64,000 nucleotides of DNA from Ancylobacter novellus DSM 506 (GTDB lineage: Bacteria; Pseudomonadota; Alphaproteobacteria; Rhizobiales; Xanthobacteraceae), in NCBI RefSeq assembly GCF_000092925.1, contig NC_014217.1, positions 1 through 64,000 on the forward strand, in the 5' to 3' direction. The notes under the pieces are model-generated. The model had not been told where the DNA came from. It searched no databases and was given only the letters and a program-made list of their open reading frames with translations. The position numbers were made by a program, and so were the translations under genes. Positions 1 through 39,270 of the stretch are shown piece by piece (position 1 is the first letter of the stretch; each line of letters starts with the position of its first letter).

Positions 1-450
1 AATATCGATGCGCTATGCACATCCGCGCATATCGAGCGCCGGATATGGCGCAATGCGGCGTGCGGGCGGCCGGTCAACGCCGAGGCGCATCTCGCCATCT
101 GCCAAGTGCTCGCCATCGACCCGGTGACGGCCGAGGCGCCGACGCCGGCGCTCTTTCTCGCCGGGCCGGTGTGCTGGGCGACGCTCGGCGCCGGGGTGCG
201 GGTGACGCGGGAGACGCGCGGGCACGGCGTGCGCGAGGCGGCCGCGGCGGCCGGGGTTTCCGCCGCCACGGTCTCGCGCTGCGAGAATGGGCGCGAGCTT
301 TCCTTCGACAGCCTTGCGCGGCTCTCGGCCTATGTCGGCCTGCACCCGCATGCCTACACGGTGAAGCCGTTTCCTGATCCCGGTTCCACGGGAAACACCC
401 ACTGTAACAGCTTGAAAACACAGGAGGCGCCCCATGATCGACATGGGTGA
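1..450 (+). CDS. HTH (XRE-like) phage protein, 5' truncated by window
   Basis: The reading frame is open from the first base, so the true start lies outside the window. The visible 149 residues contain a helix-turn-helix region in the middle (GVREAAAAAGVSAATVSRCE, followed by a second helix pair and a short tail) of the XRE/Cro type, so it probably binds DNA. The 3' end overlaps the start of the DnaA-like gene by 17 bases, suggesting translational coupling in an early operon. It could be an early regulator, but it is too short and too partial to assign as the prophage repressor. Confidence 0.6.
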   Translation, partial: NIDALCTSAHIERRIWRNAACGRPVNAEAHLAICQVLAIDPVTAEAPTPALFLAGPVCWATLGAGVRVTRETRGHGVREAAAAAGVSAATVSRCENGRELSFDSLARLSAYVGLHPHAYTVKPFPDPGSTGNTHCNSLKTQEAPHDRHG

Positions 451-1672
451 CGCGCTGCCGCCCGGCGTGCATACGGCGGCGGACCTCATGCGGCATTACG
501 AAGAGGTGCGGCGGCGGATGAAGGCGCAGACGGCGCGCCGGCGCGGCCCGCCCGTGCCGCCCCCGGTGACGGCGGCTGTAGTGCCTGCCGTTCCCGTGGC
601 TCCATCCGTCGTCGAGCCGCCTTCCTTCTCGCCGCGCGATGCCGCGCTGACCTTCGCCCGCTACTGCGTCGGCGAATGCAACCGGCTGGCGCATGCCGCG
701 GCTTGCGATGTCGCCGCAAGCGCGCCGGGCCTGATGCCACGCTTCAACCCGCTTTTCGTCCATGGCGGTACGGGGCTCGGCAAGACGCATCTGCTGCAGG
801 CGCTGGCGCAGGCGGCGGAGGAGAGCGGACGGCGCGTCGCCTACCTCACTGCCGAGCGCTTCATGTTCGGCTTCGTCGCGGCCATGAAGACCGGCACGAC
901 CGAGGATTTCCGCGCGAGGTTCGGCGAGATCGACCTTCTGCTGCTCGACGACGTGCAGGGGCTGCACGGCAAGAGCGTGCAGCAGGCCTTCTCCTCGGCG
1001 CTCAACGCGCTGATGGACGCGCACCGGCAGGTGGTGATCGCCGCCGACCGGCACCCCGGCGACCTCGACGCCTTCGACGAGCGGCTGCGCTCGCGGCTCG
1101 GCGCCGGGCTGGTGATCGAACTGCGCTCGCTCGACGACGAGGTGCGCGCCGCGATCATCGCCGCGCAGGCCGAGCGGGCGGCGGTGCTCTCGCCCGGCTT
1201 CGCATTGCCGGTGGATGTGGCGCGGTTCCTGGCCAGCGACGGGCGGATGAATGCCCGCGACCTCGCCGGGGCGGTTAACCGGCTGCTGGCGCCACACCAG
1301 TTCGGCGGCGTCGAGATTACGATGGATATGGCGCAGGCGGTCTTGCGCGACGTGATCCGCACCGGCGAGCCGCGGCGCGTGCGGGTAGACGACATTCTGC
1401 GCGTGGTGACGAAGCAATTCGGCGTGACGCTGGCCGACATCCTCTCCCAGCGGCGCACGGCCAATGTGGTGAGGCCGCGGCAGATCGCGATGTACCTCGC
1501 CAAGACGCTGACCCTGCGCAGCCTGCCGGAGATCGGCCGACGCTTCGGCGGGCGCGACCACACCACCGTGCTGCACGCCGTGCGGAAGATGGACGGGCTG
1601 CGGTCGCACGACGCGAAGCTGCGCGCCGAGCTCGACGACCTCGAGGCGAAGATCATGGAGAGGGTGGCGTGA
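434..1672 (+). CDS. Phage-encoded DnaA-like replication initiator
   Basis: A 412-residue relative of the bacterial initiator DnaA. Residues 1-65 are a short Pro/Ala-rich region that does not resemble DnaA domain I. The AAA+ core follows: Walker A GGTGLGKTH at 111-119, Walker B LLLLDD at 168-173, sensor I near IAADRHP (202-208), and an arginine-finger region FDERLRSRL around 214-222. Domain IV covers about 314-388 and ends with the DnaA signature GGRDHTTVLHAV. The last bases overlap the next gene (GTGA). Chromosomal dnaA normally sits beside dnaN; here the neighbours are HNH and methylase genes, so this is a phage copy. Inferred role: opening or loading at a phage origin, or competition with host DnaA. 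Confidence 0.88.
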   Translation: MIDMGDALPPGVHTAADLMRHYEEVRRRMKAQTARRRGPPVPPPVTAAVVPAVPVAPSVVEPPSFSPRDAALTFARYCVGECNRLAHAAACDVAASAPGLMPRFNPLFVHGGTGLGKTHLLQALAQAAEESGRRVAYLTAERFMFGFVAAMKTGTTEDFRARFGEIDLLLLDDVQGLHGKSVQQAFSSALNALMDAHRQVVIAADRHPGDLDAFDERLRSRLGAGLVIELRSLDDEVRAAIIAAQAERAAVLSPGFALPVDVARFLASDGRMNARDLAGAVNRLLAPHQFGGVEITMDMAQAVLRDVIRTGEPRRVRVDDILRVVTKQFGVTLADILSQRRTANVVRPRQIAMYLAKTLTLRSLPEIGRRFGGRDHTTVLHAVRKMDGLRSHDAKLRAELDDLEAKIMERVA

Positions 1673-4535: not shown

Positions 4536-5234
4536 ATGACGGGGATTGTTGTCGACAGGTTCGCTGGCCACAACCCCGCGCCCATGCGCATCCTCATCGG
4601 TTGCGAGACGTCGGGCGTCGTCCGGCGCGCCTTCGCCGCCTATGGGCACGATGTCTGGTCGGTCGATCTGCTGCCTGCGGAGGACCGCAGCAACCGGCAC
4701 ATCATCGGCGACATTCGCGACTATCTCGGTGAAGGCTGGGATCTGCTCGCCGTCATGCATCCACCCTGCACGCGGCTGTGCAACAGCGGCGTGCGCTGGC
4801 TCCGCAAGGCGCCGCCCGGCCGGACGCTTGAGGAGATGTGGGCGGATCTGGAGGAAGGTGCGGCGCTGTTCTCCGATTGCTGGAATGCGCCGATCGAGCG
4901 CATCTGCGTCGAGAATCCGGTCATGCATCGCTATGCGCGCGAGCGCATCCGGAACTGGGCGAAGCCGCAGACGGTGCAGCCCTGGTGGTTCGGTGAGTCG
5001 GCCTTCAAGGCGACCGGGCTCTATCTGCGTGGTCTGCCGCCGCTGGTGCCGACCCGCAAGCTGGTGCCGCCGAAGAAGGGCACGGACGAACACAAGTCGT
5101 GGTCGAAGGTGCATCGCGCCTCACCCGGCCCTGAGCGGTGGAAGGACCGCAGCCGCACCTATGACGGCGTTGCCGAGGCCATGGCGGCGCAGTGGACGGC
5201 CGCCTGGGCGCGCGAGCGGGAGGCGGCGGAATGA
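4536..5234 (+). CDS. Cytosine-methyltransferase-like phage protein
   Basis: 232 residues. It begins with a Rossmann-like strand and glycine turn (MRILIGCETSGVVRRAFAA) and a VWSVDLLP second strand, then HPPCTRLCNSG, which resembles the PC motif of C5-cytosine methylases, and IERICVENPVMHRYA, like the ENV/ENP motif. It is much shorter than a full Dcm and no recognition domain is visible. The ATG at 4536 has an AGAGGG ribosome site at 4523-4528; that site is paired in a small hairpin with CCCTCT at 4511-4516. A second ATG at 4584 starts directly at the conserved region but lacks a ribosome site. Activity is uncertain. Confidence 0.65.
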   Translation: MTGIVVDRFAGHNPAPMRILIGCETSGVVRRAFAAYGHDVWSVDLLPAEDRSNRHIIGDIRDYLGEGWDLLAVMHPPCTRLCNSGVRWLRKAPPGRTLEEMWADLEEGAALFSDCWNAPIERICVENPVMHRYARERIRNWAKPQTVQPWWFGESAFKATGLYLRGLPPLVPTRKLVPPKKGTDEHKSWSKVHRASPGPERWKDRSRTYDGVAEAMAAQWTAAWAREREAAE

Positions 5235-6295
5235 GCAACTACGCGCAAGGATGGGTTGAAAACCTCGACGTCGTGCTCGGCTCCAGCACGCGCTTCGTGC
5301 TGATGGCGCTGGCGAACTATGCCAATGACGCCAATCTGGCGTGGGTCTCCCGCAGCACGATCGTCAAATACACCGAGCTGAGCCCGGCGACGGTGACGCG
5401 CGCGCTGCGCGACCTCGAGGCGCGCGGGCTGATCGAGCGCGAGGAACGCTTTCGCGACAACGGCTCGCGCACCACCGACATGATACGCCTGCTGGTCGGC
5501 TGCACACCGCGGCCGGCTACCCCCCCTGATCACAGTGATGAGGGGGGTACTGATCACCATGATGAGGCCCCCTCATCACCACGAGCAGGCCCCCTCATCA
5601 CGGTGATGAGACCTGAACCCTCACTTGAACCCTCAATTGAAGATTCCCCCCAAGCCCCCCAGGGGGCCGGGGTGGGGATTTCGAAATCCGATGGTGAAGG
5701 GGAAGGGGGCGCGCCGGACACGCAGTTCGACGTGTTCTGGGCGCAGTACGGCGCCGACCCGACCGCCAGCAAGGCGAAGGCGCTGCGGTCATGGGCGCGG
5801 CTTGGCGCCAGCGAGAGGGCGCAGGCGCTCGCCCTGCTGCCGCGCTTCCTCGACCATTGCCGGGCGAAGAGCCGCAGGATCTGCGATCCCTCGACCTACA
5901 TCGCCGAACGGCGCTGGGAAGGGCTGGCGAACGTGCCGGCACCCGCCGCCCGGGCCGAGGAGGCGCCGGCGCGGCCGGTGGAGGCCGACCCGGTGAAGCG
6001 GGCCGTGCTGTGGGCGCTGAACGACAAGGCCGACCGGGGTGAGTGGCATTTCGTCGAGCAGGGCAGCGACGCCTGGGAGGCGTGGCGGCAGGCCTTCGGC
6101 GCGGCGGGCTTCGGGCATCGCTGGATGGCAGGGCGAGTTGTGCGCGAGCCGGCGCCGGGAGGCGGCATCGTCCAGCGCCTCGGCCGCAGCTTCCCGCTGC
6201 GCTACCCGCCCAAGGCCGACGGCAGCGGCACCGGCCCGCCCGATGGCACGGTGACGGCGGACGAGATGGCGGAATTCGTGAACAGCGGCGGTTGA
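5231..6295 (+). CDS. Phage replication protein with winged HTH (HTH_36 type)
   Basis: 354 residues, start ATG overlapping the previous stop (ATGA). Residues 1-90 form a winged helix-turn-helix of the replication-initiator kind (helix SRSTIVKYTELSPATVTRAL, then LEARGLIEREE). Residues 95-160 are a low-complexity Pro/Asp/Gly linker encoded by an unusual block of DNA repeats (listed separately). The C-terminal 190 residues contain FDVFWAQYGADPTASKAKAL, like the C-terminal region of many phage replication proteins. The layout, DNA-binding head plus repeat-bearing linker plus partner-binding tail, parallels lambda O. It is probably the origin-binding initiator. Confidence 0.7.
   Translation: MSNYAQGWVENLDVVLGSSTRFVLMALANYANDANLAWVSRSTIVKYTELSPATVTRALRDLEARGLIEREERFRDNGSRTTDMIRLLVGCTPRPATPPDHSDEGGTDHHDEAPSSPRAGPLITVMRPEPSLEPSIEDSPQAPQGAGVGISKSDGEGEGGAPDTQFDVFWAQYGADPTASKAKALRSWARLGASERAQALALLPRFLDHCRAKSRRICDPSTYIAERRWEGLANVPAPAARAEEAPARPVEADPVKRAVLWALNDKADRGEWHFVEQGSDAWEAWRQAFGAAGFGHRWMAGRVVREPAPGGGIVQRLGRSFPLRYPPKADGSGTGPPDGTVTADEMAEFVNSGG
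5521..5610. repeat. Iteron-like palindromic repeat cluster, candidate replication origin
   Basis: Six copies, in both orientations, of a unit close to GTGATGAGGGG. They form a 27-base near-perfect palindrome at 5521-5547, an inverted pair at 5560-5578 (8-base arms TGATGAGG around CCC) and an exact 17-base palindrome at 5594-5610 (CTCATCAC-G-GTGATGAG). The 15-mer AGGCCCCCTCATCAC is repeated exactly at 5565-5579 and 5587-5601, 22 bases apart, about two helical turns. A further 14-base palindrome GGATTTCGAAATCC is at 5676-5689. All of it lies in the linker-coding part of the replication gene, where lambda keeps its origin. Confidence 0.6.
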
Positions 6296-6306: not shown

Positions 6307-6900
6307 ATGGGAATGGTCGGTCGGCCGCGTATCGAGACGCGGGAACGGTATGCCTGCGGCAAGGCGAAGTCGAAGCCGGAGGTGGCGTCTCCCGCCATGG
6401 TTCGGCGCATCATCAACGAGGCCCGGCGCGGGGCGGCTGACCCTGCGCTCGGCTCGGTCATCGGCCAGCTTCGGCTGCGCGACATCATCGACACGCGGCA
6501 GATGAGCGCCGGCCTGCGCTATGCCGAGCTTTGCGCGGACTTCGACCGGATGAAGGGTATTCCGCGCCGTTCGGCCGCCAGCCCTTCCTACCAGGCGGGC
6601 CTGCGCCGCACGGGCGGGAATGATGCCGAAGACGAGGGCATCGTGGCCGAGCTGCTGCGCAATGGTGGCGACGTGCGCGAACTGGCGAAGAAGAATGCCC
6701 GGCTGCGTGCCCTGGTGCGGATCGTCACCGCTCACGAGGCGGCGCAGAAGGCGCTTCTGGAGTGCGGGCAGCCCGTGTGGCGGCTGGTGCGCGAGGTGGC
6801 GATATACGACCGGACCATCGACGCATGGCATCGTCCACAGCTTATACGCGGGCTGGATGCCCTCCTGGCGCACTTCGACTTGACCGGATTTCGGAAGTGA
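6307..6900 (+). CDS. Phage protein of unknown function, helical
   Basis: 197 residues, well preceded by a purine-rich ribosome site (GAGGAGAGGCGAG). The sequence is predicted by eye to be nearly all helical, with many Arg and Leu and no cysteine cluster or transmembrane stretch. No family was recognised. It is the last gene of the early block, and its stop codon lies inside a perfect 10-base inverted repeat, so transcription probably ends or is modulated here. A late-gene regulator would fit this position, but nothing in the sequence proves it. Confidence 0.6.
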   Translation: MGMVGRPRIETRERYACGKAKSKPEVASPAMVRRIINEARRGAADPALGSVIGQLRLRDIIDTRQMSAGLRYAELCADFDRMKGIPRRSAASPSYQAGLRRTGGNDAEDEGIVAELLRNGGDVRELAKKNARLRALVRIVTAHEAAQKALLECGQPVWRLVREVAIYDRTIDAWHRPQLIRGLDALLAHFDLTGFRK

Positions 6901-28892: not shown

Positions 28893-28976
28893 GATCCGCG
28901 CCCGCGCGCGGATGACCGTCGGCTCCGGCCGGCGGTGACGTGCCTAGCCCTCCTTGGGCGTTCCTCCCTCATCTTG

Positions 28977-29011
28977 GCCCCGCTCTCCTCCGGGAGGGCG
29001 GGGCTCTTTTT
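28977..29011 (+). terminator. Strong intrinsic terminator after the lysis genes
   Basis: Arms GCCCCGCTCTCC (28977-28988) and GGAGGGCGGGGC (28993-29004) pair with one G-T wobble and a TCCG loop, followed by TCTTTTT. It separates the phage late operon from the AT-richer cargo genes; the rest of the 290-base gap up to 29186 shows no further feature. Confidence 0.9.
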
Positions 29012-29185
29012 GCGTTGCCGCGACAATACCGCTTCGTTGTGGATACAGCGGCCGGCCAGATGAAGCGAGGAATGTGCTTCTGGCTCAGAATTGACGGCAG
29101 CATCCACAACAAATACCTAGGCGCCGATATCGTGAGGCTCCGAGGCGGAAGCCAAGCGTGCGCGAATAGGATGACAGGGACTGAG

Positions 29186-30901
29186 ATGACCAATCGGATT
29201 TCGCGCATCGCTGCCGCTGAGACGCTGCTGTTCATTCTAATCATTGCTGTCATTTCATTTAAGCATTTCGTCCTTATTGTCCCTCATGGTCCCTCTGTAT
29301 TCATGGACGAGTTATGGTATAAAGACAATATTATCTCGCTGTTATCGAATGCCATTGCGTATAAGGCGCATTATCCTCCCGTCTATTCGGCAGTGTTAAT
29401 GCCAGCCTTTATTTTTGAGAATTGGTATGAGGCCCTTGTCGGACTCAATGCCATCTATACGTCATTATGCATTGCGGTCGTATATTTCGTTGCTCGATCG
29501 TTCGTCCGCCGCCTGCTTGCCCTTGTTGCTGCGTTGGCAGCCGCTTTATTGCCTTGGCAGGCTGTGTATCCGCTTTATATAATGAGCGAGAATGTTGCAG
29601 TACTTCTTTTCGTCCTGTCGGTATTTCTTGCCAGCCGAGGCGTCACGGATCGACCTGGTGAGGCGCTAATTTTTGGGGCCCTACTATCTACTTTGTATCT
29701 TACCAAATACTTGGCTCTGCCTGCGTTGCCGATGCTCTTTTTGGCTTGGATGGTCGGGCCCTTCCTCCAGCGCTGCCGGTATTCGCTGTCGGCATATGTT
29801 ACCAGCATCGCCGCGTGCGCTTTAGGGATGTCAATCATATTGGGCGGATGGGCTGCTTATTGCCTTTCTCGGGGAATCCCGCTGCTCAAGGCGTTCGGGC
29901 TGGCATTTGTGGATAAATACATCGACGCTGCGCCTCAATCATCTCAGTTTATGTGGTTGATTGTGTATGCAGCAGATGCTGCCCTTTCTGTCGCGCCCTT
30001 CATTTTGTTCGTGGCTCTGTGGGTAACATCTCACAGTTTTAAGAAACAAGTTCGCGAACTTAAATTCACCCAGGATAGTGTTTTTATCATCCTGTCGGCA
30101 TGTGTTGCAGCAGGCTATTGTGTGTTGAGCGCACGTCATTCATTCATTGTGCCGTATAACAGACCAAACCCATCCCATATGCAGGGCCGCTATATGATGC
30201 AGATTGGCCCAATGTTTATCATCGCGGGTGTAATTTCTTTCGAAAGACTTATAATGGATGGCCGGCTTGGATCTGGCCGAATGCGCTGGTGGATGGCGCC
30301 GCCCCTTGTAGTGGCCGCAGTTGTGCTGTCGTGGGGGATATTATTCAGAGATTTTGTCTGGTCGTTTCCCGCGTGGTTCGCGAGCATGGCGCATGTGTCG
30401 CCCAGCGTCTTTCCTTACAACAATCAGAAAGTTGCAATACTGTGCATTGCGTTGGTCGTTATAATGGCGCTCATTGTCATGATCGCGCGTGCGTCTGGAA
30501 CGATCTGGCGTATCGCGGTGCCCTCAGCAATCGTTGTTGCCATTTGTTGGCAGGCGGCGCTTTTTTGGGGTGGTGTCGAGTATGTTCGCGCACTGAGGAA
30601 CACACAGCACGGACGATATATTGCCGCGGAGGTCTTGAGCGGGCGAGTTAGTCCGAATTGTTACGAGGATATAGTCATTGATGTGCCGTTTTTGACGCCG
30701 ACTATGCTCAAAAATCAGCTGTCGTTCTGGGGAATTGATGGAAACAAATACGACATAAAAATAAGCGTTCTTGATGAGAAGAAAGAAGAAAAGGACGATA
30801 TTTACATGCTTCTAGGCGCCGCAGGGCGAAACGCTGTCGCTGTTGCCAACTACAGCCTAGACGGGCAGCAATATACTGCTTATTGCATCAATCCGGACTG
30901 A
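29186..30901 (+). CDS. Polytopic membrane glycosyltransferase (GT-C type), phage cargo
   Basis: 571 residues with about ten or more membrane helices. An Asp-Glu pair lies in the first periplasmic loop (GPSVFMDELWYKDN, Asp41-Glu42), a hallmark of GT-C enzymes that use polyprenyl-linked sugars. A soluble C-terminal domain follows (NCYEDIVIDVPFLTPTM). Base composition is visibly AT-richer than everything around it and codons differ, a clear sign of transfer. The ATG at 29186 has AGGGA upstream. It resembles serotype-converting (Gtr-like) enzymes that alter O-antigen, but the sugar is unknown and no GtrA/GtrB genes are adjacent. Confidence 0.72.
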   Translation: MTNRISRIAAAETLLFILIIAVISFKHFVLIVPHGPSVFMDELWYKDNIISLLSNAIAYKAHYPPVYSAVLMPAFIFENWYEALVGLNAIYTSLCIAVVYFVARSFVRRLLALVAALAAALLPWQAVYPLYIMSENVAVLLFVLSVFLASRGVTDRPGEALIFGALLSTLYLTKYLALPALPMLFLAWMVGPFLQRCRYSLSAYVTSIAACALGMSIILGGWAAYCLSRGIPLLKAFGLAFVDKYIDAAPQSSQFMWLIVYAADAALSVAPFILFVALWVTSHSFKKQVRELKFTQDSVFIILSACVAAGYCVLSARHSFIVPYNRPNPSHMQGRYMMQIGPMFIIAGVISFERLIMDGRLGSGRMRWWMAPPLVVAAVVLSWGILFRDFVWSFPAWFASMAHVSPSVFPYNNQKVAILCIALVVIMALIVMIARASGTIWRIAVPSAIVVAICWQAALFWGGVEYVRALRNTQHGRYIAAEVLSGRVSPNCYEDIVIDVPFLTPTMLKNQLSFWGIDGNKYDIKISVLDEKKEEKDDIYMLLGAAGRNAVAVANYSLDGQQYTAYCINPD

Positions 30902-30968
30902 CGAAGGTCGGCACGTGGATCAAATTCAGGAAAGCATTTGAGTAAGCGAAAAAGCCAGAGATACGGGA

Positions 30969-32477
30969 TCATGCTGGCGCAAGCGACATCGAAATTAGGC
31001 CAATGCCAAGGGGGCGACGGTCCACGCTGTCATCGACGTCAGGACGGAGCGGTCTCGTTAGCTCGATCTCGAGCAAGGCCTCGTCCCCCGGCGACAGCGA
31101 ATCGGGAAATGCGGCTGATATTTCGCGAACTGCTTCGATGCCATCGAGCTCAATCGATGCGACTTCTCGATCATTCAACCGAAGGGTCAGAAACCGTCTT
31201 TCGGTCGTGGGCGGCCGCACGTCGACGAACTTCAGGAGTATGCCAGCAGCACCTTCGGCCGCGCGGAACCGAAGCGCCGAGGCGAGGCCGACGGACCAAG
31301 TGAAGTCTGGGTCCGGTTCGGCCCATCCCCACCGCGTGAGTGCAGCGCCGTTGCCCCCGGGCACGAAGTGAATTGGTGCCCCGCAGGCCACCATCGGAAT
31401 TGCAGGTTCTTCGTCGGGAGCAGGAAAAGGCGAGACGAAGCTAGTGTTGCCAAGATGGGGGGCTCCGAAGTCCTGTCGGTCAGCTGAGCGAACCGCCTTC
31501 GTTGGAGTGAGACCCTCGAAGCAAATGGCTTCGCCAGGGCAGTCGTGAGAACGGAGCGGCCGCATTACCGCAATCAGCTGTGTCGGCTTGACTTGCTCGG
31601 CTCTGATGAGGTCGTCTTCGAGAGCCTTGATTTGCGAGAGAAAGTTTGCGTCGGGGGGATTGTTCGGGTCAAAATTGGGCCCAAAGCTCCTGTCGGTAAA
31701 TATCTCTGAGAGGCCACCATAGGCCAGAAATCGCTCGAACTTGAACCGCTCGAGAAGAGCCGGAAGAATATCTTGCGATCTGATGCCTTCGAACCCCTCT
31801 ATCGAGCAATCCCAGTTCTCAAACCAGCGATCGAACCGGCTGAGCTGGTGATCCCACTTCAGCCTGTCCGGCAGCGCCGGCCACAACTCCCGAATGATGC
31901 CGAGCGTCTCGGGCCACCTCATGTGGCCGTTGCGGCCGATCATGTCCATCGTGATGAAGGCGCCCTCGGGCGGCAAATAGGAATTCACCTGGTCAAATAT
32001 TCTCTCCAACTCGACCAGATGATGAAGTGAATGATGCGCCATGAACGCGGCCACATTGCCGGCGAGCGGGAGGTCGACGTTCAGGTCGACCACCTGGGCG
32101 GAGACGAAGTCTTCAAGACCCTGCTCGCGTATGGCGCGGTTTGCGCGATCGACAAGCACTGGCGACAGCTCAAAACACTTAAGGTGAAAAGCGGGCAGAC
32201 CCCGGCTGCGCGCGAGATTGATAATGTCAATTTCGAGCGACCCGTACCCAGCGCCAAGGCTGACGGCAACATCGAGGCCGGTCCTTGCGACCGCTTCCGC
32301 AATATGTACTGCGTAGAACTCTGCGACACTTTCGGTTCCGGAAACCTGACGCATCCGTGGCCGCAGGAATCGCGAATTAAACCAATTCGCAGCCGCCGCG
32401 GCGTTGTGCATGTTCTCGACGGTCGAATATTGGCCGATTTGCGATTGAACCTGTTGGTCGTATTTCGGATTCAACAT
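30969..32477 (-). CDS. SAM methyltransferase with C-terminal beta domain, phage cargo
   Basis: 502 residues from the ATG at 32477. The class I SAM-binding motif is SLGAGYGS (73-80), followed by HLKCFELSPVLVDRA, the acidic-strand VVDLNVDLPL and a catalytic-region AFMAHHSLHHLVELERI. Residues about 340-502 form a beta-sandwich-like domain (RRFLTLRLNDREVASIEL) resembling carbohydrate-binding modules. It is convergent with the glycosyltransferase gene, so the two may modify the same surface glycan. A longer frame to 32702 would run into the divergent gene. Confidence 0.7.
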   Translation of the reverse strand: MLNPKYDQQVQSQIGQYSTVENMHNAAAAANWFNSRFLRPRMRQVSGTESVAEFYAVHIAEAVARTGLDVAVSLGAGYGSLEIDIINLARSRGLPAFHLKCFELSPVLVDRANRAIREQGLEDFVSAQVVDLNVDLPLAGNVAAFMAHHSLHHLVELERIFDQVNSYLPPEGAFITMDMIGRNGHMRWPETLGIIRELWPALPDRLKWDHQLSRFDRWFENWDCSIEGFEGIRSQDILPALLERFKFERFLAYGGLSEIFTDRSFGPNFDPNNPPDANFLSQIKALEDDLIRAEQVKPTQLIAVMRPLRSHDCPGEAICFEGLTPTKAVRSADRQDFGAPHLGNTSFVSPFPAPDEEPAIPMVACGAPIHFVPGGNGAALTRWGWAEPDPDFTWSVGLASALRFRAAEGAAGILLKFVDVRPPTTERRFLTLRLNDREVASIELDGIEAVREISAAFPDSLSPGDEALLEIELTRPLRPDVDDSVDRRPLGIGLISMSLAPA

Positions 32478-38688: not shown

Positions 38689-39270
38689 TTAGTTGGTCTT
38701 GGCGCCGGCGTCCGAGGTCTCGCTGCGCATCTGCTCCAGCGACTTGAATTCCGGCGCCGAGTTCAGTTCCTCCTTGGTGAGGGCGACCACGATCTTCTGG
38801 CCGTCGTCGGTCGGCGTCGGGGTGAGCGAGTCGAAGGACACCGCCACCGGCTTGGCGCCGATGCCGAGGAAGCCGCCGACGTCGATCACCGCGGCGATGA
38901 CGCTGCCGTCGCGCTCCAGCACCAGATCGCTGATCGAGCCGAGCTTCTCGTCGGTCGAGGTCACGACGGCGGTGCCGATCAGGTCGGAGCCGAGCCACTG
39001 GCCCGAGCTCTGGGTGCTCACGAATTTCGGCGTCGAGGGGGCGGGCTTGGCCGCGGCCGTGTCGCCCGAAGGCGGAGTGGTCGGGGTCGCGCTCGGGGTA
39101 TTGGTGTTCGGCATCTCGGAAGCCGGAGCCTGCGGGGTGCCGGCATCCGGCGCCATCGGGCTGGCGGCGGGCGGAGTGGTGGATTCCGGCGCCGGGCTCT
39201 GGCTGAATGCGACCGCCGGGGCGAGCGCCAAGGCAGCGGCGGCGGTCAGGGTCGCAAGCTTGCTGGTCAT
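38689..39270 (-). CDS. Exported PRC-barrel domain protein, EcfG-dependent
   Basis: 193 residues. A signal peptide (MTSKLATLTAAAALALAPAV) is followed by a Pro/Thr/Ser-rich linker of about 70 residues, then a PRC barrel (WLGSDLIGTAVVTSTDEKLG, SISDLVLERDGSVIAAVIDV, GGFLGIGAKPVAVSFDSL). Such proteins are common in the stress regulons of Rhizobiales; molecular role unknown. The ATG at 39270 has GGGAGAAG upstream; a start at 39348 would begin in the promoter and is rejected. Confidence 0.85.
   Translation of the reverse strand: MTSKLATLTAAAALALAPAVAFSQSPAPESTTPPAASPMAPDAGTPQAPASEMPNTNTPSATPTTPPSGDTAAAKPAPSTPKFVSTQSSGQWLGSDLIGTAVVTSTDEKLGSISDLVLERDGSVIAAVIDVGGFLGIGAKPVAVSFDSLTPTPTDDGQKIVVALTKEELNSAPEFKSLEQMRSETSDAGAKTN

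Follow-up and report, generated by a model that had tools for sequence, protein, structure and literature searches.

A probable replication origin inside the O-like initiator gene of an Ancylobacter novellus prophage, and a C-run/C-run/G-run box that recurs in phage replication genes

Why should the linker of a phage replication protein be encoded by an array of inverted repeats? The question is raised by a gene near the left end of the window, the 64,000-nucleotide stretch analysed here (positions 1-64000, forward, of the single 4,765,023-base contig of Ancylobacter novellus DSM 506). Origins embedded in the gene of their own initiator have been studied in depth in a few phages, lambda being one (PMC7466680, in excerpt). 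The product of the present gene finds its best PHROG matches among replication initiation and O-like families (phrog_270 at 9.8e-23, phrog_1032, phrog_391 and phrog_678). The N-terminal helix-turn-helix (HTH) DNA-binding domain, one of the marks of an initiator with a lambda-type embedded origin, is present (Pfam HTH_36, 1.3e-9). Phage_rep_O (PF04492) is not among the 15 Pfam families that match the protein at E<=0.1, and we therefore regard the initiator as an O-like protein outside that family. An AlphaFold2 model, built from 13 sequences and with an overall pTM of 0.31, consists of a confident winged helix (residues 1-96), a disordered segment (residues 98-161, pLDDT<50) and a structured, mostly helical part from residue 164 on; the disordered segment is encoded by nucleotides 5522-5713, the stretch that bears the repeats. 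Pfam and Foldseek matches indicate a MarR-like fold. At E<=0.001 Foldseek retrieved 135 viral models, among which is a phage replication protein O; its PDB matches are generic winged helices, and none reaches this threshold. A search of solved structures by sequence found no relative of the initiator. The features discussed below are collected in Table 1.

Table 1. Features of the candidate origin and its neighbourhood, in window coordinates
Feature	Coordinates	Strand	Basis or remark
Prophage DnaA paralogue (AAA+ and DnaA DNA-binding domain)	434..1672	+	possible replication partner; 418-codon frame
O-like phage replication initiator gene	5231..6295	+	354 aa; PHROG replication initiation families, Pfam HTH_36, AlphaFold2 model
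Iteron 1, CTGATCACAGTGATGAG	5526..5542	none	dyad/repeat analysis
Iteron 2, CTGATCACCATGATGAG	5550..5566	none	repeat family and genome pattern scan
Iteron 3, CTCATCACCACGAGCAG	5572..5588	none	right half-site degenerate
Iteron 4, CTCATCACGGTGATGAG	5594..5610	none	dyad exact apart from centre
A/T-richer spacer, candidate unwinding element	5611..5645	+	20/35 A or T; two GAACCCTCA-type repeats
C-C-G box (C-run/C-run/G-run), CCCCCCAAGCCCCCCAGGGGG	5646..5666	+	box type recurs in phage replication genes
GGATTTCGAAATCC palindrome	5676..5689	none	not conserved, probably incidental
Gene directly downstream of initiator	6307..6897	+	197 aa; no Pfam family, weak PHROG of unknown function

The linker DNA contains four 17-bp dyads of the form CTSATCAC-n-GTGATGAG, whose starts lie 24, 22 and 22 bp apart, and the repeat search returned a 21-nt family in four copies with the same spacing. 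In-gene iterons of the kind that mark a lambda-type embedded origin, imperfect inverted repeats some 20-24 bp apart, are thus present. Between 5521 and 5610 the unit GTGATGAGGGG occurs in three exact copies and one with a single mismatch, and these are the only sites with 0-1 mismatches among the 27 window sites that have up to two; three more sites of this kind in the linker need three mismatches. The initial annotation had spoken of six close copies: the repeats themselves are real, but the count comes to four good copies and some weaker ones. The 27-base palindrome, the 17-base palindrome and the 15-mer direct repeat that it had described are all found, the first as CCCCCCTGATCACAGTGATGAGGGGGG at 5521-5547 with one mispaired pair apart from the centre, the second as iteron 4 and the third as AGGCCCCCTCATCAC at 5565 and 5587, 22 bp apart. 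A further palindrome that it had listed, GGATTTCGAAATCC, does exist at 5676 but is broken in the homologues L012, L013 and L015, and is rejected as a part of the origin. The pattern TSATCACNRTGATGAG occurs without mismatch in this array only across the whole 4.77-Mb genome, and has four matches elsewhere when one mismatch is allowed. GC skew takes no informative turn around the locus. Rfam gave no match at cut-off and two sub-threshold matches; one of these, to sR14 (E 0.067), scores 18 bits where 38 are required and covers iteron sequence at 5531-5586.

Could the encoded peptide by itself account for these repeats? Shared 7-mers were counted in the gene and in 3000 synonymous shuffles with the protein and the codon usage of the gene held fixed. 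Between 5521 and 5610 we observe 17 direct and 22 inverted shared 7-mers, where the shuffles average 1.1 and 2.5, and no shuffle equalled either value (p=1/3001 in both cases). Repeats are not enriched over the shuffles in gene region 5700-5900 (p 0.11 and 0.80); there is a weak enrichment of direct repeats at 5900-6292 (33 vs 18, p 0.012) and one of inverted repeats in the HTH part of the gene (13 vs 5.2, p 0.017). The repeat array exceeds what the peptide explains.

The homologous genes point in the same direction. Matches were obtained in 17 of 61 genomes of relatives and, at E<=1e-6, in 25 of 296 genomes of the family. The shuffle test was applied to 18 motif-bearing genes besides that of the window, with the 95% identical L010 kept and with 10 of the 28 genes other than L011 dropped because they do not contain the searched peptide motif. 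At p<=0.05, inverted repeats are enriched in the linkers of 17 of these 18 genes and direct repeats in 12, the exceptions for the latter being L018, L022, L024, L028, L035 and L037; the corresponding numbers are 4 and 3 of 18 in the HTH window and 0 and 2 of 18 in the C-terminal window. The dyads, 1 to 6 per gene, occupy the same place, and their sequence differs between clades. The initial annotation had proposed such a comparison, with homologues that lack the repeats and keep an equivalent linker as the outcome to speak against an origin. The opposite is found, as the repeats are kept in place while their sequence and the surrounding residues vary, with the exception of L037, whose linker is not significant (0.066) and has no dyad by the criterion used. 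This agrees, together with the excess over the peptide-fixed null, with its view that the DNA and not the peptide is under selection.

A comparison of half-sites is more specific. In L012, which has 72% protein identity to the window initiator, the good half-sites read TGACRAG, and in the window TGATSAG, so that, as read off the alignment, T has changed to C in seven of seven; the same alignment reading gives TGACRAG in 7 of the 8 half-sites of L014 (48% protein identity). The peptide can hardly account for seven parallel, symmetry-related changes, since the reading frame differs from copy to copy (HSDEG, SSP, LITVMR). The half-site change between the window and L012 is concerted, which fits an embedded origin of the lambda type. 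Some genes (L021, L022, L024 and L028) encode a different N-terminal domain, of the IIRRRYNRN type. In L024 and L028 this domain is joined, near the C-C-G box, to a C-terminal part that resembles the one in L018 and L020, an arrangement that looks like a natural domain exchange.

What could be the role of such an array? We consider it probable that 5521-5666 is a prophage origin lying inside its own initiator gene, an interpretation first advanced in the initial annotation and now favoured by the matches to initiator and O-like PHROGs as well as by repeats above the peptide-fixed null; the same degree of belief extends to the mechanism as a whole. Dimers of the N-terminal winged-helix domain would bind the four dyad iterons, this binding would open the A/T-richer spacer at 5611-5645, and the C-terminal part of the initiator would recruit the replicative helicase machinery. 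The spacer is conserved in four aligned sequences and is only modestly AT-rich. Because the linker is predicted to be unstructured, its DNA would be free to track the binding specificity of the initiator. At the right edge of the putative origin, where lambda has a palindrome, lies the C-C-G box, most likely a strand-folding or boundary element at the edge of the opened region; it would also stand at or near a seam where some phages exchanged the DNA-binding domain together with the origin cassette, and may have contributed to that exchange.

Two alternatives concern the array as such. The dyads might be operators through which the winged-helix protein or a phage repressor regulates its own operon, with replication starting elsewhere. 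MarR-like proteins often bind dyads, the fold of the initiator is MarR-like, and dyads alone are no proof of an origin; however, these dyads are located some 300 bp into the coding sequence, the family annotation of the gene is replication initiation and the known iterons of lambda form the same kind of array, and we judge regulation of this sort quite improbable. The second alternative assigns the role of the real initiator to the prophage DnaA paralogue, acting at another site with the O-like protein as an accessory. In seven of seven syntenic loci the sequence upstream of the O-like gene encodes a DnaA-like protein in whole or in part, the DNA-binding region included, yet TTATNCACA-like sites occur in the window at chance level (7 against 7.4 expected) and none lies within 5 kb of the iterons, so this arrangement also appears improbable.

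The neighbourhood contains a few further peculiarities. The other DnaA match of the genome falls in a 544-codon frame at 610.9 kb (G000:C1:610883-611368), and, since coordinate 1 just precedes the prophage paralogue while the longer DnaA is found there, the zero point of the genome may be set at a prophage gene. The gene directly downstream of the initiator is 72-98% identical in three of the seven syntenic loci. In a circular chromosome the contig end would border the window; it contains an integrase-family match below cut-off and a Cro/C1-type HTH domain; also present there, at L419:14396-15730, is a match to the N-domain of the DNA polymerase III beta clamp (2e-16). Farther into the window, positions 29001-31000 form an island of about 50% GC, compared with 60-70% in most flanking kilobases; this GC-poor island contains the only exact TTATCCACA of the window (29908) and overlaps a 653-codon frame at 28940-30901.

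The conserved C-C-G box at 5646-5666, which the initial annotation had missed, deserves separate consideration. In 14 related homologous genes its proline codons are CCC in 28 of 28 cases (background 88 of 370) and its glycine codon is GGG in 14 of 14 (background 103 of 351); these genes were fetched by protein similarity and chosen by peptide motif, L010 and the motif-less genes being left out. Among viral contigs the pattern CCCCCNNANCCCCCNNGGGGG is matched at no fewer than 120 loci, and its reversed form at 39 in all. After nine loci had been dropped as repeated contexts, 111 distinct contexts remained among the matches listed, and in 103 of these the box is sense in the longest ORF, as against 14 of 39 for the reversed pattern, although the longest ORF and the gene can differ (in L207, where the gene is known, the longest ORF is antisense). 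The 111 ORFs listed have PHROG matches to phrog_270 (40), phrog_9474 (38), phrog_678 (34) and phrog_9327 (33) and Pfam matches to DUF1376 (19), HTH_36 (16) and Phage_rep_O (6), while individual ORFs match something else, for instance a terminase domain. Replication, O-like, primosomal or DnaD-like PHROGs are matched at E<=1e-5 by 24 of 30 ORFs taken at random from the 111 listed (the remainder being L064, L072, L077, L106, L147 and L148); at most 2 of the 39 control ORFs from the reversed pattern match replication families.

The reading frame of the box is variable. The 103 sense contexts among the matches listed have it in frames 1, 2 and 0 in 67, 28 and 8 cases, and nine of ten proteins chosen from frames 2 and 0 match replication PHROGs, L153 matching none. 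As the different frames encode different peptides (PLPPKG, PLTPQG, PNPPRG), it is the nucleic acid and not the peptide that is conserved. This nucleic acid might be the mRNA, in which the box would act as a stable hairpin or a pause between domains. The consensus RNA fold amounts to -14.7 kcal/mol, and frame independence fits RNA and DNA alike; the predominance of sense boxes agrees with a transcript too, but cannot separate the two roles, because a DNA origin within a gene also has a fixed orientation. Given that Rfam yields nothing at cut-off and that the neighbouring dyads and the A-rich tract are features of a DNA type, action in mRNA seems unlikely to us.

In named genomes, matches to a stricter box lie sense in the longest ORF in 40 of 48 cases and antisense in 8. 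Of the 40 sense ORFs, 35 have at least 150 codons (frames 21, 11 and 3), and the record titles include Variovorax, Paraburkholderia, Stenotrophomonas, Flavonifractor and Bacteroides. Box-like strings also occur antisense or in short frames on Bacteroidetes and cyanobacterial contigs (L374, L377, L387, L394, L397, L403, L411, L412) and are perhaps dispersed repeats unrelated to origins. The 397 genomes of the phylum hold six matches to the box pattern, in five genomes, against one for the reversed pattern; three are in initiator-like genes (the window, L207 and L208), two are in low-complexity sequence and L209 is in a short frame. The box is therefore rare in genomes at large. Are the repeats then REP-like mobile palindromes, or a product of simple low-complexity drift? 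The eight antisense C/G-run strings, which include Bacteroidetes and a cyanobacterium, could be taken in this sense; but the exact iteron pattern is unique in this genome, the box pattern occurs in it once, and the strong excess over synonymous shuffles sits in the linker, which makes either explanation scarcely credible. The string CCCCCCTACCCCCC alone was rejected as a marker of the box, being mostly random: it is found at 120 loci or more, eight of which are box loci already, and 18 of the 112 new ones listed have a G4+ within 8 bases. No description of the C-C-G box was found in one open-access library, which is a weak negative.

An AT-rich stretch ahead of the box is more evident across the wider set than in the window itself. 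In the 103 sense box genes listed, the 20 bases before it are 51% A and 66% AT, compared with 42-47% AT from 300 to 40 bases upstream. Repeats were evaluated in 82 of the 103 sense genes among the matches listed, 21 without room for all windows having been dropped. The 150 bases before the box contain direct repeats at 5.8x and inverted repeats at 4.1x the expected level, with p<=0.05 in 68 and 38 of the 82 genes; the respective ratios are 2.0 and 1.4 farther upstream and 1.5 and 0.9 downstream of the box. The strongest repeat window is centred a median of 58 bases before it.

A few gene groups show a switch of homology at the box or close to it. The 146 box loci compared include 27 pairs that strongly share 10-mers, 11 of them on both sides, 14 on the right only and 2 on the left only. 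In the 16 one-sided pairs the box is common to both members (identity 0.95-1.0) and homology stops at or near it. Similarity begins at the box or within about 10 bases of it in 11 of the 14 right-only pairs and some 20-25 bases before it in the three L157 pairs; the mirror case is that of L022 against L024 and L092, where the left sides agree fully or almost fully for 60 bases and similarity declines past the box. To the left, the right-only pairs have almost no 10-mers in common and an uncalibrated identity of 0.55-0.71 by gapped alignment. The pairs amount to three clusters plus L022, the 14 right-only pairs being the three clusters, and hence to few independent exchanges.

Such a pattern would also be produced if the box were a passive seam, conserved as shared homology for phage recombination and without any role in initiation. 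The 16 one-sided pairs, the mirror case among them, favour this explanation, as does the published ori-lambda, which ends before the palindrome in an excerpt of PMC3349717. On the other hand, the independent events are few, the stretch shared by the L157 pairs starts ahead of the box, and, given the rapid divergence of linkers, homology may start sharply with no exchange behind it; a passive seam also leaves the position of the box beside an A-rich tract and repeats unexplained. All in all, we find it somewhat unlikely.

How general is the element? A universal box is rejected, since, of loci fetched regardless of it, a relaxed box turns up in 2 of 18 for DUF1376 and in 1 of 23 framed ones for phrog_678 (of the 30 phrog_678 loci, 24 were examined, L257 being unframed, and L247 was left out as the window's own gene). 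In-gene repeats at p<=0.01 without a box characterize 13 of 18 O-like genes (L239 counts among them, but its signal stems from a masked stretch and is an artefact), 7 of 13 DUF1376 genes and 4 of 11 box-less homologues, and together with a box 13 of 16 box homologues and 57 of 88 box genes; this comparison leaves out L010, L036, the DUF1376 loci L215, L217 and L220, the two box-bearing DUF1376 loci and 11 of the 30 phrog_678 loci. Because box-less initiator genes also carry in-gene repeats, the box is unneeded for an embedded origin. Nine annotated phage genes give a similar picture, with significant in-gene repeats in eight (the exception is TL-2011b, p 0.075) and the box in those of phiES15 and a Bradyrhizobium phage; it is absent from lambda, ES18, Olaya, TL-2011b, SPN1S, Rac ydaU and 673R7, the last two having C-runs without a G-run. 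A general right-hand hairpin at the end of every embedded origin is likewise unsupported, as z<-1.64 is reached in 9 of 45 box-less genes and 6 of 44 controls, with a mean z of -0.62 in the box-less genes and -0.48 in control regions.

It is possible, even if we lean slightly against it, that an A-tract, then two C5-6 runs with a short spacer between them, then a loop of between 2 and about 8 bases and G5-6 constitute a widespread nucleic-acid element of embedded origins, occurring in HTH_36, Phage_rep_O, DUF1376 and DnaD-like initiators and in all three frames. It would fold as a G-tract structure or hairpin at the right edge of the opened region and serve as a joint for the exchange of domain and origin cassette. 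The published bounds of ori-lambda, which exclude the palindrome, lower the odds of such an element.

The wider use of these observations lies in the peptide-fixed repeat test, which finds DNA-level repeats in many phage initiator genes and thereby allows candidate embedded origins to be located from sequence alone. The C-C-G box provides a searchable landmark for some of them and makes it testable whether the element that follows the A-rich tract of lambda on its right has any effect. The seam pattern, in turn, suggests how phages may change their replication specificity with initiator and origin still matched.

Among known systems, conserved sequence block II (CSB II) of vertebrate mitochondria, an unrelated genome, offers a resemblance only: the string CCCCCCTACCCCCC turns up in papers on mitogenomes, and published abstracts describe the block as G-quadruplex-forming. 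The C6-TA-C6 likeness suggests, by analogy and not as evidence, a G-tract structure. A G-rich RNA from the box would require transcription against the gene; CSB II functions in primer formation.

Other parallels come from phages. The gene for gp59 of Salmonella phage ES18 (AY736146, annotated ‘similar to lambda ori’) has, like the window, embedded iterons and an A-rich tract, followed by a short palindrome; unlike the window, this palindrome is of ordinary sequence and there is no C-C-G box. Its right-hand hairpin is clear, with z of -3.46 against -1.47 in the control. The replication protein O gene of Cronobacter phage phiES15 (JQ780327) encodes a Phage_rep_O protein and follows the order seen in the window, with repeats first, then an A-rich tract and then the box, CCCCCCTAACCCCCCAGGGGGG; the repeat sequence, the host and the protein subfamily differ.

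The parallel with lambda O, already drawn in the initial annotation, is borne out by the annotated lambda iterons, which stand in the same arrangement. In the O gene and ori-lambda (J02459), as in the window, the origin lies inside the initiator gene, with four dyad iterons spaced 20-24 bp, an A-rich tract to their right, though only a modestly AT-rich one in the window, and an inverted repeat just after the tract; the lambda record places its four iterons 20, 24 and 23 bp apart, then the A-rich tract and then a palindrome with 12-nt arms and a 4-nt loop (L426:563-590, record 39162-39189). The right-hand hairpin of lambda has z of -2.16, which is not beyond that of its own control region (-2.85). 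An excerpt of PMC3349717 defines ori-lambda as 39034-39160, before the palindrome, and PMC7466680, also in excerpt, gives two iterons and the AT-rich region as the minimal DNA for unwinding. As both exclude the palindrome, the lambda element at the place of the box falls outside the published origin. The latter excerpt places the lambda/Stx iteron mid-way along O, describes it as an imperfect inverted repeat and reports that amino-acid-neutral iteron changes abolished transformation by a P27-derived plasmid (PMC7466680). The window differs from lambda in the sequence of the half-sites, in having no match to Pfam Phage_rep_O, in a less AT-rich spacer and in a right-hand element that is a C-run/C-run/G-run box instead of a palindrome; the gene downstream, which holds the position of lambda's helicase-loader gene, has no family match. 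In its anatomy, the putative origin of the window resembles that of lambda.
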